The notes: generated by a model from the letters alone, not told the origin. Shown: positions 69-18,407, counted from the stretch's first letter. The stretch: DNA of 35,515 nucleotides from an uncultured Clostridia bacterium (GCA_947589065.1 CANPZM010000015.1:1-35515), one strand, 5' to 3'. A program made the numbers and translations.

Positions 69-1690
69 ATGATTTTAATCTCATAGGAAATGAATGGGAT
101 ACAAGTATAAGCGGATTCACATTTAACATAACAATGCCAAAAGATTTTGATAAATCAACATTAGGATTTACAACAGGAGTTAAAGGAAGTAATGCTTATC
201 CAAGTGATTTAGAATATGTCGTAGAAGGTAACAAAATCATAGGAACTTTAAAAAGCACTTTAAAAGCAGGAGAAGGGTTAACAATTAGACTTACATTACC
301 AGACGGATATTTTGTAGGTGCAAGTTTAAACTTTGATATATACACAATATGTGTAATAGCTTTTTGCATTATAAGTATTTTAATAACATTTCTAATATGG
401 CAAAAATATGGGAAAAATGAAGAAGTAATAGAAACAGTTGAATTCTATCCTCCGGAAGGACTAAATTCAGCAGAAGTAGGCTTTTTATATAAAGGAAATG
501 CAGATATAAAAAGTATAATTTCTTTACTAATTTATTTAGCAAATAAGGGATATATAAAAATTGAAGAAACTGATCAAAAGAGATTATTTTCAAAATCAAA
601 AGTAGTTAAAATAATTAAACTTAAGGAATATGATGGAGATAATGAATGTGAAAAAATATTCTTTAATGGTTTATTTGATAAATTAAGACCAAAAGGAACT
701 TTAATTAAAGCAAGTAAAATTCAAAGGTCTGAACAAAGAAAATGGAATAAGATTTCTTGGAAAGATGCCAAAAAAAGAGCAGAAATTGAAGCAAAAATTG
801 AAGAAAGTAAAGATTACGTAACATTTAGAGATTTATATTTTGAATTTTGTAGAACAATTGGAATAATTGGTTTTAGATTTAATAATAAATATAATAAAGA
901 ACAAATATTAGAACCAATGTCTTTAGGAAAATGCATATATTTTATTTTTATTATTATTGCAATATTTATCTTAATAACAGTTAAACCAGTTAATGAATTA
1001 TATGGTGGCATAACAGTACCATTAACATTACTGTTATCTGGAATTAGTTATACGGTATTATTTAATATGATAGATGAAAAAAATTCAATAATAGCAATAA
1101 TATTTAAATTAGTATGTTTAGGATTTATAGGAAAATTTTGGGTAAATAATTTATTTTCATCTTTAACATATTATCCTATATACTTAATAACATACATAAT
1201 AGGAATTGTATGTATAATAGTATTAGTATTCTTTATAAAAATAATGCGTAAGAGAACACCGTATGGAAATAAAATGTATGGAAAAATAAAAGGATTTAAA
1301 AGATTTTTAGAAACTGCCGAAAAGGAACAACTTGAAGATTTAGTTGAACAGAATCCTGAATATTTTTACAATATATTGCCATATACTTATGCTCTAGGAG
1401 TATCAAAAAAATGGATGAAGCAATTTGAAACAATTGCTTTAAAAGGACCTGGTTGGTATTCTAGCAGTACAGAATTCAATGTAAGAACATTTAATAACTT
1501 TATAAATAGTACAATGAGATCTGCAACAAATGCAATGACATCAGGTAATTCATCAGGCAGCAGTAGTACATCAGGAGATTCATCTGGAGGAGCTTCATCT
1601 GGAGGTGGCGTATCAGGAGGAGGCTCTGGCCGGAGGCGGTGGAGGTTCATGGTAAAAACTTCTTTTACAAATGAATTAAGCATTAGCTGA
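68..1690 (+). CDS. DUF2207 family membrane protein, 5'-truncated, frameshifted near its 3' end
   Basis: This is the C-terminal part of a DUF2207 predicted membrane protein. The ATG at 134 is internal: family-like sequence (NLIGNEWDTSI) already runs from about base 70, and the N-terminal ectodomain is missing. Numbering from 134, a membrane helix spans about 67-89, followed by the cytoplasmic EFYPPEGLNSAEVGFLY motif (103-119), further helixes between about 265 and 378, and a block also present in the paralogue at 12425 (RTPYG, FLETAEKEQLEDLV, YNILPYTYALGVSKKW). The end is Ser/Gly-rich. As read, the tail leaves frame after GGGSGR and stops at 1690. Removing one C of the CC at 1630-1631 restores GGGGGSW and a stop at 1653-1655, the usual ending of the family. 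The molecular function of DUF2207 is unknown to me. Confidence 0.8.
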   Translation, partial: YDFNLIGNEWDTSISGFTFNITMPKDFDKSTLGFTTGVKGSNAYPSDLEYVVEGNKIIGTLKSTLKAGEGLTIRLTLPDGYFVGASLNFDIYTICVIAFCIISILITFLIWQKYGKNEEVIETVEFYPPEGLNSAEVGFLYKGNADIKSIISLLIYLANKGYIKIEETDQKRLFSKSKVVKIIKLKEYDGDNECEKIFFNGLFDKLRPKGTLIKASKIQRSEQRKWNKISWKDAKKRAEIEAKIEESKDYVTFRDLYFEFCRTIGIIGFRFNNKYNKEQILEPMSLGKCIYFIFIIIAIFILITVKPVNELYGGITVPLTLLLSGISYTVLFNMIDEKNSIIAIIFKLVCLGFIGKFWVNNLFSSLTYYPIYLITYIIGIVCIIVLVFFIKIMRKRTPYGNKMYGKIKGFKRFLETAEKEQLEDLVEQNPEYFYNILPYTYALGVSKKWMKQFETIALKGPGWYSSSTEFNVRTFNNFINSTMRSATNAMTSGNSSGSSSTSGDSSGGASSGGGVSGGGSGRRRWRFMVKTSFTNELSIS

Positions 1691-7986: not shown

Positions 7987-8018
7987 ATAAGGACTATTTT
8001 TAGTTCCTTATTTTTTTT
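7986..8018 (+). terminator. Attenuator-like terminator ahead of carA
   Basis: AATAAGGACTA (7986-7996) pairs with TAGTTCCTTATT (8001-8012), with one bulged base, a TTTT loop and eight Ts at 8011-8018. It lies between the leader ORF and carA, with no promoter visible after it, so carAB transcription probably has to read through it. Confidence 0.7.
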
Positions 8019-8049
8019 GCGTAAAAAGAAAGGAAAGGTAAAAAATACC

Positions 8050-9139
8050 ATGAAAGAATTCAATAAAAAAATCATACTAGAAGATGGTGAAGAATATTAT
8101 GGATATGGTTTTGGAGCCGATAAAGAAAGTATATGCGAAATTGTATTTAACACATCAATGGTAGGATATCAAGAAATAGTATCAGATCCATCATACACTT
8201 ATCAAATGGTTGTAATGACATACCCTTTAATTCGGTAATTATGGAATTACCGATGATGATTATGAAACAAAACAACCTACAATTGGTGGCTTAATTGTAA
8301 GAGAATATAATAATTATCCAAGTAATTTTCGATACACCAAAACATTGTCTGAATATCTTGAAGAAAATAATATTCCTGGCATAACAGGAATAGATACTAG
8401 GAAATTAACACGAAGTATAAGAGATAAAGGAAGCAGAAAAGTAATAATAACAGATATAAATACTGATAAAGAAAAAGCATTAAAAATGTTGAAAGAATAT
8501 AAATTACCAAATGATGCTGTATCAAAAGTAAGTTGCAAAAAAAGATGGTATTCAAGAACATCAAATCCAGAATTTAACATTGTTGCTATAGATTGTGGTA
8601 TGAAGCTAAATATTGTAAGATCATTAAATAAAAAAGGATGTAATGTAACAATTGTTCCATATAATACAACTGCAGAAGAAATAATTGAATTAAAACCAGA
8701 TGGAATATTTATCTCAAATGGACCAGGTAATCCTGAGGATGTAGTAGAAGTTATAGAATTAATAAGACAATTAAGAGGAAAATATCCTATGTTTGGAATA
8801 TGCTTAGGTCATCAAATGATAGGTTTAGCATATGGAGCAAAAACATATAAATTAAAATTTGGTCATAGAGGTGGAAATCATCCTATAAAGAATTTAAAAA
8901 CCGACAAAATAGAAATCACAAGTCAAAATCATAGTTATGCAATAGATGAAGAATCTTTGAAAAAAACAAATCTGGTTGTAACACATAAAAATATTTTAGA
9001 TAACACAGTAGAAGGAATAGAGTGCAAGAAAGATAAAATATTTAGTGTTCAATATCATCCAGAAAGTGCACCAGGTCCACAAGACAGTGAATACTTATTT
9101 GATGAATTTATTTCATTATTAAAGAATAAAGGAGAATAA
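8050..9139 (+). CDS. carA: Carbamoyl-phosphate synthase small subunit, single-base frameshift
   Basis: CarA supplies ammonia from glutamine to CarB for carbamoyl phosphate, the shared precursor of pyrimidines and arginine. The ATG at 8050 ([13 protein letters not shown]) follows AAAGGAAAGG; the TTG at 8017 is too early and lies on the terminator. The frame breaks at 8233: an extra C turns the conserved TYPLIGNYGI into TYPLIR and a stop at 8236-8238. Deleting it gives an uninterrupted protein through the C-terminal glutaminase domain, with nucleophile Cys in FGICLGHQ and the [10 protein letters not shown] His/Glu pair. If the insertion is real, only the N-terminal 63 residues are made from this start. 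It is three bases from carB, so the two form an operon. Confidence 0.9.
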
Positions 9140-12424: not shown

Positions 12425-14464
12425 ATGAAAGAAATAAAAGTTTTAATTATATTTTCAGTATGTTGTATTCTAGCTATATTTTTCTTTACTCATATATATA
12501 CATCATCAGAGCCAAATACATCTACAGCAGATGGTTTTACAATATCAAAATATAAAGTCTTATTAAATGTAGAAAAAAATAATAAAGTTAATGTTATAGA
12601 AGAAATAACAACCGATTGGTATGAAACAGGACATCATGGAATTTATAAATTCACACCAGAATGGCTAGAATATACAGATAAAAATGGAAAAACACATAAA
12701 AGAAAATCAATAATTTCAGAATATAAAGCAATAGGAGATAAATATTTTGTAAGTAAGGTTAATAATAAATATAGACTTCAAATTGGTAGTTCAAGCAAAG
12801 AAGTAGATTTAGGTGAAAAAACATATACTGTAGCATATCAATATGATATGGGAAAAGACCCATATAAAAAATTTGATGAATTCATATTTCATGCATTTGG
12901 CGATTATTGGGGAACACCTATAAATAATGCCTCAATTGAGCTTAACATGCCTAAAAACATTGAAAAATATCCAATTAACTTCTTCACTGATAAATATAGA
13001 AAAAACAATGTCAACGATTTTGTAAATTATTATACTTATGACAATAAATTAATTGCAAATTTTGATGGTGAAAAATATAAGAATGAAAAAAATCAATCAT
13101 TAAATTCATCATTAACAGTTGATGTTGAACTACCAGAAGGTTATTTTGAAGGTGGAAGTTGGAACTATGGATATAAATCTTTAAGCCTATGCATAATAAT
13201 CGTTCTAATTACAGTATGGCAATTTCTAAGATGGTTAAAATATGGTAAAGATTTGCCAAAATATGTTGATGACATAGAATATTATCCGCCTAATAATCTT
13301 GATTCAGCTGAAATAGGTTATATTTATGGAAAGCAAAAGTCAAAAAAATTAACAATCTCAATAATTATAGATTTGGCAAGTAAAGGATTTATTAAAATTG
13401 ATGAATTAGATAAAAAACAAATCCAAATCACAAATATGCATTCAAAACCAAAAAAACCTATTAAGAACAAACCAACTCAAACCAGACAAATAACCATAAA
13501 AAAATTAAAAGAATCTGATGACTTCTTAAATTCAAAAGAATCTATGTTAATGAAATATCTATTCAGGCATGAAAATATAATCCAATTAGATACAAATATT
13601 GATACCTTTTTAGAAGTAAAAGATAAATTAGTACAAAATAAATACATTGAAATACTTAATGATAACTTAAAAGAAGTATTAATGGATTCAGAAAATATAG
13701 AAAATAAATATAAAGAAGAACTTAAAGAATATGACAAAAAAATGATAGAATATAATAACAGTAAATTAAATGGAACTGCTTTAAGTAAAATCGATGAAAT
13801 GGTATATCAAAAATTATTTGTATATAGTGATGTAATTATTTTAAGCGAGCACGAAACATTTTACGAAGTATTTAAAGATGTTGATACATATTTAAAAGAT
13901 AATTATGAAAATTTAGTTAATGATGAAAAATCTAGCAAAAAGGCTAAACAATCAATTTATATAACTTTATCAACAATAGTTATTTTCTTATTTTCATTCT
14001 TCATTTTTCAAGACCTCGACCCTGAAATAAATACATTATATATATTATCTTTTATATGTATATTTATAAATATATTCTTAACATTTATAATGAAAAGACG
14101 TACTGACTATGGAGAAAAGCTTATTTCCAAAATAAAAAGCTTTAGAAATTTTCTAATTACAGCTGAAAAACCACAATTAGAAGAATTAGTTTCAGAAAAC
14201 CCAAAATATTATTACAACATATTACCTTATACATATGTATTAAATATTTCAAAAAAATGGATCAAAAAATTTGAAAATATACCAATGCCTATCGAAAATA
14301 ATATCAGCACATATAGTGTAGATTTATTTAACGACTTTAATAGTAACATACATATTCCATCGAATAATGGCTCATCATCAGGAGGAGGTTGTTCTTCTTG
14401 TGGAGGTGGCTGTTCATCATGCGGTGGAGGATGTTCATCTTGCGGAGGTGGAGGCTCATGGTAA
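12425..14464 (+). CDS. DUF2207 family membrane protein with (GGGCSSC)3-GGGGSW tail
   Basis: A 679-residue full-length paralogue of the gene at the left edge. An N-terminal helix (about 5-24) is followed by the DUF2207 ectodomain (GIYKF; FDEFIFHAFGDYWGTPI), a helix near 255-275, the EYYPPNNLDSAEIGYIYG motif, a long charged cytoplasmic region, a helix pair near 514-560, and the shared block RTDYGEKL...YNILPYTYVLNISKKW. The tail, residues 653-673, is three exact heptads GGGCSSC, then GGGGSW. Gly-rich tails ending in SW are usual for this family; regularly spaced Cys pairs are not, and the paralogue has none. The stop overlaps the start of a SPASM radical SAM gene. I infer, without direct proof, that the tail may be modified by that enzyme. 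Metal binding or disulfide formation are alternatives. Confidence 0.88.
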   Translation: MKEIKVLIIFSVCCILAIFFFTHIYTSSEPNTSTADGFTISKYKVLLNVEKNNKVNVIEEITTDWYETGHHGIYKFTPEWLEYTDKNGKTHKRKSIISEYKAIGDKYFVSKVNNKYRLQIGSSSKEVDLGEKTYTVAYQYDMGKDPYKKFDEFIFHAFGDYWGTPINNASIELNMPKNIEKYPINFFTDKYRKNNVNDFVNYYTYDNKLIANFDGEKYKNEKNQSLNSSLTVDVELPEGYFEGGSWNYGYKSLSLCIIIVLITVWQFLRWLKYGKDLPKYVDDIEYYPPNNLDSAEIGYIYGKQKSKKLTISIIIDLASKGFIKIDELDKKQIQITNMHSKPKKPIKNKPTQTRQITIKKLKESDDFLNSKESMLMKYLFRHENIIQLDTNIDTFLEVKDKLVQNKYIEILNDNLKEVLMDSENIENKYKEELKEYDKKMIEYNNSKLNGTALSKIDEMVYQKLFVYSDVIILSEHETFYEVFKDVDTYLKDNYENLVNDEKSSKKAKQSIYITLSTIVIFLFSFFIFQDLDPEINTLYILSFICIFINIFLTFIMKRRTDYGEKLISKIKSFRNFLITAEKPQLEELVSENPKYYYNILPYTYVLNISKKWIKKFENIPMPIENNISTYSVDLFNDFNSNIHIPSNNGSSSGGGCSSCGGGCSSCGGGCSSCGGGGSW

Positions 14465-15453
14465 ACAGATTTATATTACAATGGCATTTAAGTGAAGCAT
14501 GTAATTTAAAATGTTTACATTGTTATCAAACAAATCATACTCCAGTTCAATTAGAATATGAAAAATTAGTAAAAATATTTAATCAATATTTAGAGCTATT
14601 AGAAAAATTAGAACTACCTGGCCATATAAATATTACTGGTGGTGAACCATTATGTAATCCATACTTTTTTAAAATTCTTGAACTAATAAATAACCATTCC
14701 GATAATATTACTTTTTCAATATTAACAAATGGAACACTAATTACTGAAGAAATTGCAAAAAAAATAAAGCAATTTAATCCTTATTATGTTCAAGTAAGCT
14801 TAGAAGGTGGGGAAAAAATAAATAACTACATTAGAGGAGAAGGAACATATAATCAAATAGCTAAAGGAATTAAAAATTTAAAAAAATATAACATATTTAC
14901 TTCAATATCCTTTACAGCAACAAATCAAAATTATAAAGAATTTCCTCAAGTAGTAAAATATGCAAAAAAATATAAAGTAAATAGTGTTTGGTCAGATAGA
15001 TATATTCCTTTGGGAGAATCAAATGATAAAGATTTAGCATTAAACAAAGAACAAACACAAGAATATCTAAAAATCATGAATAATGAAAGAAATTCATTAT
15101 TAAATGCAAAAAAACCTAAAATAAGAATTTTAATGAACAGAGCATTACAATTTCAAATGACAAATGAATATGCATATGGATGTACAGCAGGAGAAAGTTT
15201 ATTAACAGTAATGGAAAATGCAGACTTAGTCCCATGTAGAAGAATGCCTATAGTAATAGGTAACTTATTAAAAGACAATATGTATGAGCTTTATATGAAT
15301 AATAATATACTAAAAGATTTAAGAACAAAAAAAATTCCTGATGAATGTATTGAATGTGAACATTCTAAAATGTGTCATGGTGGATTAAAATGCCTAACAT
15401 ATGCTATTTATAAAGATTTAAACCATAAAGATATTGGTTGTAGCGAACAATAA
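14458..15453 (+). CDS. Radical SAM/SPASM domain enzyme, probable peptide or protein maturase
   Basis: A 331-residue radical SAM enzyme. The cluster motif CNLKCLHC (Cys 15, 19, 22) is followed by GGEPL (61-65) and ILTNGT (88-93). The C-terminal region carries seven Cys in a SPASM-like order: 242, 260, 297, 300, 306, 312 and 328, including Cx2Cx5Cx5C. SPASM domains bind extra Fe-S clusters and are typical of enzymes that modify ribosomal peptides or proteins. The start is the ATG at 14458, overlapping the upstream stop by seven bases. The Gly codons of the upstream tail (GGAGGTGGAGG, 14444-14454) double as its ribosome site, giving tight coupling. An in-frame start near 14389 would lie inside the tail repeats and encode Trp/Arg-rich nonsense. 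The neighbouring CSSC tail is the natural candidate substrate (inference). Confidence 0.88.
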   Translation: MVNRFILQWHLSEACNLKCLHCYQTNHTPVQLEYEKLVKIFNQYLELLEKLELPGHINITGGEPLCNPYFFKILELINNHSDNITFSILTNGTLITEEIAKKIKQFNPYYVQVSLEGGEKINNYIRGEGTYNQIAKGIKNLKKYNIFTSISFTATNQNYKEFPQVVKYAKKYKVNSVWSDRYIPLGESNDKDLALNKEQTQEYLKIMNNERNSLLNAKKPKIRILMNRALQFQMTNEYAYGCTAGESLLTVMENADLVPCRRMPIVIGNLLKDNMYELYMNNNILKDLRTKKIPDECIECEHSKMCHGGLKCLTYAIYKDLNHKDIGCSEQ

Positions 15454-15494
15454 AATAATCATATCATTAAAACATAATAAAGGAGTTATCAAAA

Positions 15495-16217
15495 ATGATT
15501 TTAACTGCTAACTCATTGAAAGATATTGAAAAAATAATTCCAAGCAATGTTACTATTATGGATTTAAAAAATAAAATTAGGCTAAATAAAAAAGATAAAA
15601 ATATTATTATATTAGCTGAATATGATTTATTAAATGCTGATGCAAAAAAAATTATAAAGCAAATATTAAAAATACAAAAACAATGTCAAAAGAAAAAAAT
15701 ACACATTGGATGTAAAATTAATAATGAAGATGTATACGCAATAATATTAAATAAATCAAATCATAAATTAAATATTAAAATATATGAAAGTTTAGAAATT
15801 ATACTATCAATATCAAATATATCATCAAAACAAGAAAGAATTGAATTTATTTATGATAAAGCTTGTGAATACTTAGACACAGAAAAACAAAAATTAAATT
15901 ATTGTGATTTTAAAAACGACTATTGTATAGGGAAAAGAAATCCTAACAATGGTAATCCCGTAAAAATGGGATGTTGCTATCATGTTAGTGTTATTCCTTT
16001 TAAAAAAAATACACTCTGTAAATATTTACACAATAAAGATTGTACTACAAAATGCTTCGCATGCAAATTATTTACTTGTGATGCTGTTAAAGTAAAATAT
16101 AAAATAAAAGATATAATATACGTAGATTGTTTTTTTAATATCATACAAAAAATAATTCTTAAAGCAACTGTTCTTACTTCAAAAGAAGCAATTATAAAAA
16201 TGCTAATGATATTTTAA
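15495..16217 (+). CDS. Cys-rich protein of unknown function following the radical SAM gene
   Basis: A 240-residue protein I cannot assign. The N-terminal half is Lys/Ile-rich and may form an alpha/beta domain. Thirteen Cys are present, nine of them between residues 137 and 195 (137, 144, 160, 161, 175, 183, 187, 190, 195), including KMGCCYH and KCFACKLFTC. The spacing looks like a metal- or Fe-S-binding module, not disulfides of a secreted protein, as there is no signal peptide. A good AAAGGAG site precedes the ATG, 41 bases after the radical SAM stop, so it is very likely in the same operon. It could be a partner or electron carrier of the enzyme, or a second substrate. prfB starts 19 bases after its stop. 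Confidence 0.7.
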   Translation: MILTANSLKDIEKIIPSNVTIMDLKNKIRLNKKDKNIIILAEYDLLNADAKKIIKQILKIQKQCQKKKIHIGCKINNEDVYAIILNKSNHKLNIKIYESLEIILSISNISSKQERIEFIYDKACEYLDTEKQKLNYCDFKNDYCIGKRNPNNGNPVKMGCCYHVSVIPFKKNTLCKYLHNKDCTTKCFACKLFTCDAVKVKYKIKDIIYVDCFFNIIQKIILKATVLTSKEAIIKMLMIF

Positions 16218-16236: not shown

Positions 16237-17347
16237 ATGATTGATTTACTCGAAAATCAAAAAGAAATAAGTTCATTAAATTCTAAATTAAAAAGTATAG
16301 GTGATTCTCTTTGACATCTCTAATAAAAAAATAAAATTAGAAGAATTAGAGAATAAAACCTTAGAAAATGATTTTTGGAATAATAGTACAGAATCTAGCA
16401 AAATTCTTTCAAAGATTAAGTCTCTAAAACTTCAAGTAAACAATTATGATAACATAAGTAAAGAAATAAATAACATTATAGAAATGAATAAAATGATTTT
16501 AGAAGATTATGATGAGGATTTAGCAAAAGAATTACTAATTGCAACACAAAATATTTCTATCAGAATAGAAAAATTAGAATTAGAAACATTCCTTTCTGGA
16601 AAATATGATCAAAATAATGCAATACTTACAATACATCCTGGAGCAGGGGGAACAGAATCACAAGATTGGGCAGAAATGTTATATAGGATGTATACAAGAT
16701 GGGCAAACAAAAATAATTATCAAATAAATCAAGTAGATTATCTTGAAGGCGATGAAGCAGGATTAAAAAGTGTTACATTCGAAGTAATTGGAGAAAATGC
16801 ATATGGTTATCTAAAAGGAGAAATGGGTGTACATAGGTTAGTTCGTATATCACCATTTGATAGTAATAGTAGAAGACATACATCATTTGCATCAGTTGAA
16901 GTTTTACCAGAAATAACTGACGATATAGAATTAGATATCAATCCAGATGATTTAAGAATTGATACATATAGAGCATCAGGTGCTGGTGGACAACATATCA
17001 ATAAAACTTCATCAGCTGTAAGAATTACACATATTCCAACAAATATCGTAGCACAATGTCAATCAGAACGTTCACAAATTCAAAATAAAGAAACCGCAAT
17101 GAAAATGCTAAAATCAAAACTATTAGACTTAAAGGAAAAAGAACAAAAAGACACTATAGATGATTTAAAAGGCATACAAAGAGAAATTGCCTGGGGAAGT
17201 CAAATACGTTCATATGTATTTTGTCCATATACACTTGTAAAAGATCATAGAACAAATTATGAAGTTGGCAATGTACAAAGTGTAATGGATGGAAATATAG
17301 ATGACTTCATTGATAGTTATTTAAAATCAAATATAAAAAATAAATAA
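16237..17347 (+). CDS. prfB: Peptide chain release factor 2, with programmed +1 frameshift
   Basis: RF2 releases the chain at UGA and UAA. Translation starts at the ATG at 16237 (MIDLLENQKEIS). Codon 25 is CTT (16309-16311) and codon 26 is TGA (16312-16314). Slipping one base forward reads GAC at 16313-16315 and continues in the frame ending at 17347, giving 369 residues. An internal ribosome-site-like AGGTGA lies just upstream (16299-16304), as in other bacteria. This is the classical autoregulation: low RF2 favours frameshifting. The catalytic GGQ is in GAGGQHINKTSSAVRITH. It confirms that UGA is a normal stop here and that this frameshift is biology, unlike the other three. Confidence 0.97.
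16299..16315 (+). promoter_or_regulatory. prfB: prfB recoding site
   Basis: Shine-Dalgarno-like AGGTGA, four bases, then CTT TGA C: the standard RF2 autoregulatory slip site with the stop at codon 26. Confidence 0.93.
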
Positions 17348-17386: not shown

Positions 17387-17417
17387 GGATGTTATTTCAT
17401 CATTTGAAATAACATCC
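17387..17417. terminator. Hairpin between convergent prfB and the YhcC-type gene
   Basis: Perfect 13-bp stem: GGATGTTATTTCA (17387-17399) with TGAAATAACATCC (17405-17417), five-base loop. The right arm is the last coding bases of the minus-strand gene, and the loop contains its stop codon. The T-run is poor on both strands, so it is a strong hairpin but an imperfect intrinsic terminator. Confidence 0.6.
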
Positions 17418-18314
17418 TTGATATAAATTATTTTCTCTTAAAATTCTATCTAAACCATTTAATATCAATTTTTTATGCAAATTCCATTCAGGAGTCACTA
17501 ATAAGTCTTTAGGTGCATCACCAGTAATCCTATGAATAATAATATTTGGATTTATATGTGTAATAACATAAGTTAATTGTTCTAAGTAATCTTCCAAAGA
17601 AATAGGAATATAAAAACCATTTATATATAATTCATATAACTTTGTTCCTTTTATAACATAAGTAGAATGAATTTTTATTCCTTGAATATCATGCATATTT
17701 ATAAAAGAAATTGTTTCTTTTGTATCATCAAAATCTTCATTTGGAAGTCCAATCATAATATGACAAATAACATCTATTCCGTAACTTCTAAGAATTTTTA
17801 CAGCCTTTGTAAATTCTGAAGAATAATAACCTCTATTAACAAACTCTGCAGTTGTATTATTTGACGTTTGTAGACCAAGTTCGACACACACATAATGTTC
17901 TTTTGAATATGAAGAAATTAGTCTTGCTATATCATCATTTATACAATCAGGACGTGTAGCAATTTGAATTCCAACAATTCTATTATCAATAAAAGCAGAA
18001 TCATATCTATTTTTTAAAGTATTTAAATCAGCATATGTATTTGTAAAGTTTTGAAAATATACAATAAATTTGTTAGCTCTTTCAGCTCTATAACTATTTA
18101 AAAATTCTAATATTTGTTTTTTTATAGTTTTATATGTCTTCAAATGCTCTCCAGAACCTTTTTCACCACAAAAAATACATCCGCCAGTCCCACAAGTTCC
18201 ATCTCTATTAGGACATGAAAATCCAGCATCAACACAAATTTTTAATGTACGTTCACCAAATTTATTTTTTAAATATTCATTTAAATGATTATATCTTAAA
18301 TATCTTTCTTCCAT
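17400..18314 (-). CDS. YhcC-type radical SAM protein (TIGR01212 family)
   Basis: A 304-residue radical SAM protein of the YhcC/TIGR01212 family, related to the Elp3-type core; its reaction is not firmly established. The chosen start gives MEERYLRYNHLNEYLKNKFG, the usual N-terminus of the family; a longer frame to 18389 adds a non-conserved hydrophobic stretch. The Cys motif is FSCPNRDGTCGTGGCIFCG (Cys 34, 41, 46, 49). Other family blocks: FQNFTNTYAD, IATRPDCI, VELGLQT and CHIMIGLPNEDFDDT. No clear ribosome site precedes this ATG. It is convergent with prfB and shares the hairpin at 17387-17417. Downstream of it there is no partner gene, so it is monocistronic. Confidence 0.9.
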   Translation of the reverse strand: MEERYLRYNHLNEYLKNKFGERTLKICVDAGFSCPNRDGTCGTGGCIFCGEKGSGEHLKTYKTIKKQILEFLNSYRAERANKFIVYFQNFTNTYADLNTLKNRYDSAFIDNRIVGIQIATRPDCINDDIARLISSYSKEHYVCVELGLQTSNNTTAEFVNRGYYSSEFTKAVKILRSYGIDVICHIMIGLPNEDFDDTKETISFINMHDIQGIKIHSTYVIKGTKLYELYINGFYIPISLEDYLEQLTYVITHINPNIIIHRITGDAPKDLLVTPEWNLHKKLILNGLDRILRENNLYQGCYFK

Positions 18315-18378
18315 AAATATAATATAGCAGTAAAGTGTTGAATCTACAACTATTATTATAAAATTAACATCTATAAAA

Positions 18379-18407
18379 TTGACTAACAATGTAAAATCTG
18401 ATATAAT
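18379..18407 (+). promoter_or_regulatory. Promoter for the small Cys protein
   Basis: TTGACT (18379-18384), 17-base spacer, perfect TATAAT (18402-18407), 33 bases before the ATG at 18441. Confidence 0.75.

Follow-up and report, generated by a model that had tools for sequence, protein, structure and literature searches.

A radical SAM/SPASM enzyme encoded beside cysteine-repeat tails of bacterial membrane proteins, its candidate substrates

The window analysed here is a stretch of 35,515 nucleotides from an uncultured Clostridia bacterium (GCA_947589065.1 CANPZM010000015.1:1-35515), contig 15 of a 96-contig, 1.8 Mb assembly. It carries a gene for a DUF2207 membrane protein ending in a cysteine/glycine/serine repeat and, overlapping it, a gene for a radical S-adenosylmethionine (SAM) enzyme with a SPASM region. 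The features of this gene pair are the following.

12425..14464, plus strand: DUF2207 membrane protein, 679 amino acids, proposed substrate carrier (PF09972, 64.9 bits; PF20990, 106.8 bits)
14381..14443, plus strand: three tandem GGGCSSC units, proposed modification site (sequence and codons)
14444..14464, plus strand: tail end GGGGSW and stop codon, an ending also found on cysteine-free DUF2207 tails (sequence comparison)
14458..15453, plus strand: radical SAM/SPASM enzyme, 331 amino acids, proposed tail modifier (PF04055, PF13353, PF13186)
14500..14523, plus strand: CNLKCLHC, the radical SAM [4Fe-4S] motif with C15, C19 and C22 (invariant in 24 homologues)
15181..15441, plus strand: SPASM region with seven cysteines (Pfam match, homologue alignment)

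Both DUF2207 domains (PF09972 and PF20990) of the membrane protein were above the gathering score in a Pfam profile search, and an NCBIfam profile search gave no match of this protein to the TIGR04222 signature. Hydropathy and positive-inside charges placed transmembrane helices (TMs) at residues 6-24, 253-271, 510-528 and 538-556, from which we predict an N-terminal TM, an extracytoplasmic DUF2207 N-domain, a second TM, a cytosolic part, a TM hairpin and a cytosolic C-terminal part with the tail. The protein ends in GGGCSSCGGGCSSCGGGCSSCGGGGSW, the last 25 residues forming the cysteine/glycine/serine repeat. The original prediction, made from this sequence alone, had placed (GGGCSSC)x3 at 14381-14443, followed by GGGGSW, on a DUF2207 host, as our reading of the sequence and the Pfam matches also do. 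It had further described three exact 21-base units; these are exact as protein, but comparing their DNA in pairs gave 4, 4 and 5 mismatches in 21 bases. Every mismatch is synonymous, so that the repeat looks as if it has been kept by selection on the protein rather than left by a recent duplication.

The tails of related proteins were highly conserved. Among 12 homologues, identity was 96% over the last 25 residues, 23% over the preceding 20-residue linker and 40% over the body, and codon differences per pair across 15 tails averaged 12.8 synonymous versus 0.88 non-synonymous. The DNA pattern for CxxCGGGCxxCG occurred in only 2 of 398 phylum genomes, that of the window and one encoding what we take to be a NifX-like protein, and this rarity indicates that the window tail did not arise by chance. 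Hydropathy and charge indicated an N-in protein with four TMs for the window DUF2207 and an even TM number in most hosts, an arrangement that would put the tail in the cytosol, the compartment in which the enzyme works. The tails end in GSW in Bacilli and in AD/AS-type sequences in Clostridia, similar to the ends of cysteine-free DUF2207 tails, which suggests that the cysteine tail arose as an ordinary Gly/Ser-rich DUF2207/TPM tail that gained regularly spaced cysteines.

The start codon of the enzyme gene lies inside the last codons of the DUF2207 gene, with a 7-base overlap with the stop (ATGGTAA). This overlap, the CNLKCLHC motif and the seven cysteines of the SPASM region, all reported in the original prediction, were present on re-reading. 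The seven are C242, C260, C297, C300, C306, C312 and C328, six of them invariant and C300 nearly so among the 24 homologues, and they presumably act as ligands of two auxiliary clusters. The enzyme scored 86.8 bits with PF04055, over the cut-off, and 21.7 bits with PF13186 (cut-off 21.5). It was under every cut-off of the NCBIfam radical SAM maturase models (ACGX, SbtM, PapB, StsB, AlbA, anSME and others), as were representative relatives for all NCBIfam cut-offs displayed. The AlphaFold2 (AF2) model of the enzyme (predicted local distance difference test, pLDDT, 87) matched the folds of SuiB, SkfB, the anaerobic sulfatase-maturating enzyme (anSME) and PqqE, and the solved structures nearest by sequence were SkfB, anSME, CteB (5wgg), PqqE and SuiB. 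That these nearest structures are mostly peptide or protein maturases counts in favour of tail modification. No N-terminal recognition element (RRE) of the kind associated with ribosomally synthesized and post-translationally modified peptides (RiPPs) was found in the enzyme, in whose AF2 model barrel strand 1 occupies residues 5-12 and CNLKCLHC residues 15-22. Another radical SAM gene nearby (17400-18389, minus strand) is of a different type, with PF04055, a PF16199 C-terminal domain and no SPASM match.

Relatives of the enzyme were gathered from named GTDB genomes and further genomes, the closest coming from uncultured gut Bacilli. In the close enzyme clade (support 100/98), which comprises the window, G010, G044, G225, L075-L085, L282 and L283 and includes several loci cut by contig ends, all 17 members lie directly beside a cysteine-tailed DUF2207 gene. 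The pairing is retained in G044 with the order swapped (LemA, enzyme, DUF2207; tail CGGGCGGGCGGGGSW), and the tail of L283 has a single unit, GGGCSSCGGGGSW. Distant relatives (about 34-40%) lie directly downstream of genes for other membrane proteins with cysteine-repeat tails. These hosts are N-domain-only DUF2207 proteins (L087, L091), TPM-domain proteins (L088, L089, L250) and a multi-TM family without a Pfam match (L086, L090). Overall, a cysteine-repeat tail adjoins 25 of the 28 members of the wider clade, and the pairing spans Bacilli, Lachnospiraceae and Oscillospiraceae. Radical SAM relatives outside this clade (L094-L154 in part, L246) had no such tail. Mapped on trees, the tail label required 2-3 changes, versus about 9-14 after shuffling, with weak support for the deep branches. 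At the scanned pair loci no convincing separate Gly/Ser/Cys-rich precursor open reading frame (ORF) was found, leaving the tail of the host gene as the adjacent candidate. The locus in G341 (L190:4640-5668) is a decayed pair as read from its sequence: through a single in-frame deletion, DUF2207 breaks off near residue 190 and continues into the enzyme from near its residue 107, so that the tail and the active-site half of the enzyme were lost in one event, and an in-frame stop follows further on.

As a control, DUF2207_C genes were surveyed independently of the enzyme in 195 family genomes and 219 phylum genomes, and tails were read for 117 distinct complete DUF2207 proteins, chosen for the most part among those with the highest domain scores. 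The enzyme was adjacent to 4 of 4 cysteine-tailed and 0 of 113 cysteine-free-tailed DUF2207 genes (Fisher p about 1.3e-7), or to 3 of 3 versus 0 of 66 when at least 600 bases of flank were required on both sides. Apparent cysteine tails without the enzyme in L165, L182 and L215 proved to be read-throughs past Gly-rich tails, and not Gly/Ser/Cys tails. The pairing of tail and enzyme is thus strongly supported, and neither of the two genomic patterns that the original prediction had named as refuting it was seen: homologues of the enzyme mostly have a cysteine-tailed neighbour, and no cysteine-tailed DUF2207 gene lacking the enzyme was found in the survey. The proposal that the enzyme belongs to the cysteine tail of a large membrane protein gains strong genomic support from this, and the association extends to hosts other than DUF2207.

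Computed here were the constancy of the pairing, the conservation and predicted cytosolic position of the tail, and the fold and intact cluster motifs of the enzyme. Since the enzyme is nearly always encoded beside a cysteine tail, even where the membrane proteins are unrelated, it very probably modifies that tail, and we infer that the tail is its substrate. We therefore consider it likely that the two genes form an enzyme-substrate pair, in which the radical SAM/SPASM enzyme would modify the cysteine/glycine/serine tail, most likely by sactionine-type thioethers. The thioether chemistry is the weaker part, with chances that we judge about evenly balanced; it is favoured because in streptosactin a SPASM enzyme joins cysteine to the alpha-carbons of serine and glycine (PMC8172795), the main residue types in the present tails. 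The enzyme would act in the cytosol on the C-terminal repeat while the host protein stays anchored in the membrane. SAM and the auxiliary Fe-S clusters would be used to abstract hydrogen from the tail, and the cysteine sulfur would be joined to the alpha-carbon of a nearby glycine or serine as a sactionine-type thioether. One or two thioethers may form per GGGCSSC unit, in an order presumably progressing along the repeat. Somewhat less firmly, we suggest that an RRE-less radical SAM/SPASM subfamily modifies the cytosolic cysteine/glycine/serine tails of several unrelated membrane proteins (DUF2207, TPM-domain and multi-TM), such that the tail and not the host fold would define the substrate, as a membrane-anchored counterpart of RiPPs.

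Several observations weigh against this interpretation. All four cysteine-tailed DUF2207 proteins of the survey belong to bacteria that are related to one another, and they do not count as independent events. The absence of an RRE is unlike the sactisynthases SkfB and CteB. In CSSC, a cysteine stands at position +3 from the first cysteine, where streptosactin has a glycine or serine acceptor, and ring sizes would differ. For L092 and L104, two archaeal enzymes within the wider clade, no cysteine tail was found nearby; elsewhere in the genome none was found for L092, and that of L104 gave scattered CxxCxxC matches. L245, a second enzyme in Pseudobutyrivibrio G755, follows a Ser/Asn/Gly tail holding one cysteine. 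The cable bacterium Candidatus Electrothrix aarhusensis (L093:1074-2478), where the gene of a distant member of the enzyme family directly precedes that of a short TM protein whose GGCGGGGGCGG tail ends in GGCGGGGGCGGGGGGCGGCGGG, is a weaker case that can be counted less surely, as the enzyme comes first, its branch is long and the start of the tail protein is uncertain. The neighbour of L245 looks like a secreted protein, and the sole cysteine of its Ser/Asn/Gly/Pro-rich tail lies in GGCITWR.

It is possible, though rather unlikely, that the enzyme modifies the tail by a different chemistry, such as C-C cross-links, epimerisation, anSME-like oxidation of serine or cysteine, or thiazole-type changes. 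Among the fold and sequence matches are anSME, an oxidiser of Cys/Ser, and SuiB, which forms C-C bonds, and there are profile matches to the SbtM, ACGX and ScmE families, each falling far short of its cut-off. Set against these matches, the tails consist essentially of glycine, serine and cysteine and offer no tryptophan, lysine or tyrosine partner for the known C-C links; the sole tryptophan is terminal and is missing in L086-L091. Moreover, the conserved added residue is cysteine, which favours sulfur chemistry.

Less probable still is that the tail binds a metal or an Fe-S cluster and the enzyme does not modify it, the two genes being merely co-regulated, or the tail tethering the enzyme to the membrane or supplying it with electrons. 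Metal binding by CxxC repeats is common, and in the cytosol the tail would be reduced. However, the cysteine spacings vary widely among hosts (CGGGC, CGGC, CSSC, CSSGSSC), unlike one defined site, while the enzyme family is constant, and electron transfer would leave unexplained why tails on different host folds occur beside one enzyme subfamily.

The original prediction had assigned the gene downstream of the enzyme a part in the system, and had listed the Cys-free paralogue near the left edge of the window as an unmodified relative. These two genes are the following.

15495..16217, plus strand: 13-Cys protein, judged outside the system (co-occurrence independent of the enzyme)
134..1690, plus strand: DUF2207 paralogue (DUF2207_C), an internal control whose Gly/Ser tail has no cysteine and which has no neighbouring enzyme of this family

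The 13-Cys gene follows the enzyme gene on the same strand after 41 bases, and its product has, as claimed, nine cysteines within 59 residues (137-195). A three-gene system with this protein as partner is nevertheless very improbable, and co-occurrence led us to rule the protein out: its homologues, present in 43 of 195 family genomes, are spread independently of the enzyme, none occurs in G010 or G044, both same-genus genomes with the enzyme pair, and the downstream genes at other pair loci are unrelated. The protein had no Pfam, NCBIfam or PDB match, and its AF2 model (pLDDT 78) had no PDB fold match. Its family (window 15495-16217, L034-L063) comprises uncharacterised proteins of ~250 amino acids with invariant cysteines in GCC... 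and C..KC..CKLFTC patterns, and is common in the bacterial family. That an ordinary radical SAM gene came to lie next to a repeat-tailed gene by accident, as the 15 radical SAM matches in the genome of the window might suggest, is refuted by the surveys, with pairing across Bacilli, Lachnospiraceae and Oscillospiraceae, varied hosts and a swapped gene order.

The role of the paralogue as an unmodified relative fits the survey, in which Cys-free DUF2207 tails were without an adjacent enzyme. Contig C73 apparently ends in a LemA gene followed by the upstream part of this paralogue. The C-terminus first read for it (RRRWRFMVKTSF...) is a reading-frame artefact, and one frame over the tail ends in GGGGGSW and a stop; the Gly-rich tail goes out of frame near GGCTCTGGCCGGAGG (window 1561-1660). 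Many Cys-free DUF2207 genes in related metagenome-assembled genomes show Gly tails that are similarly out of frame, owing either to errors of assembly or to genuine instability of the frame. Elsewhere in the window, a gene named by inspection as prfB (release factor 2; 16237-17347) apparently keeps the classical programmed frameshift (CTTTGAC at 16309-16315). The gene named in the same way as carA (carbamoyl-phosphate synthase small subunit; 8017-9139) is split into ORFs 8017-8238 and 8345-9139, probably by a frameshift or an assembly error.

Most known targets of SPASM radical SAM enzymes are small peptides or soluble enzymes. The present enzyme resembles the sactipeptide and ranthipeptide maturases (SkfB, CteB, AlbA, and GggB of streptosactin) in combining a radical SAM domain with a SPASM/twitch domain and in its proposed Cys-containing substrate. 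Those maturases act on small leader-bearing peptides, whereas the substrate proposed here is the end of a membrane protein of roughly 270-730 residues, and SkfB, CteB, AlbA and ThnB have the N-terminal RRE that the window enzyme lacks. anSME oxidises cysteine or serine in a full-size protein without an RRE, and shares the fold (TM-score about 0.76) and the SPASM clusters. It differs in sequence (about 20-22% identity; 74 bits with the anSME model TIGR03942, cut-off 349) and in its substrate, a soluble sulfatase motif instead of a Cys/Gly/Ser repeat tail. The top-scoring NCBIfam profile was the ACGX radical SAM family (TIGR04340), at 142 bits far under its 400-bit cut-off; the known ACGX targets are short Cys-repeat peptides, not membrane-protein tails.

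The closest precedent is a 2025 proposal that multinuclear non-heme iron-dependent oxidative enzymes (MNIO, DUF692) act on Cys-rich tails carried by TIGR04222 membrane proteins, with the modification unproven and MNIO genes missing in 490 of 1372 genomes with TIGR04222 genes (PMC12452194). Both cases join an integral membrane protein, a low-complexity Ser/Gly C-terminal segment with interspersed cysteines and an adjacent peptide-modifying enzyme. The TIGR04222-MNIO systems occur mostly in Actinomycetota, with a tail predicted to be periplasmic and a looser association with the enzyme; here the enzyme is a radical SAM/SPASM protein, the host family is another and the tail is predicted to be cytosolic. 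The idea is the same, and what differs is the enzyme superfamily, the hosts and the predicted location of the tails, here cytosolic. No literature linking DUF2207 or TPM_phosphatase with radical SAM enzymes was found, nor did general queries on Cys-rich tails of membrane proteins yield any, in searches that excluded subscription literature; no NCBIfam model describing the pairing of tail and enzyme was found either.

Being a simple repeat whose natural forms range from one unit to three or more, the tail offers a convenient series of substrates for studying the chemistry. If our interpretation is true, RiPP-type chemistry builds tails on envelope proteins, and the role of the modification may, as a guess, be to provide LemA/DUF2207/TPM-type envelope proteins with a rigid, cross-linked tail. 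One DUF2207 protein of Streptococcus mutans influences biofilm and the tolerance of acid and oxidative stress (PMC10457818), and the pairing described here would offer a way into the LemA/DUF2207/TPM group, which is widespread but poorly understood.

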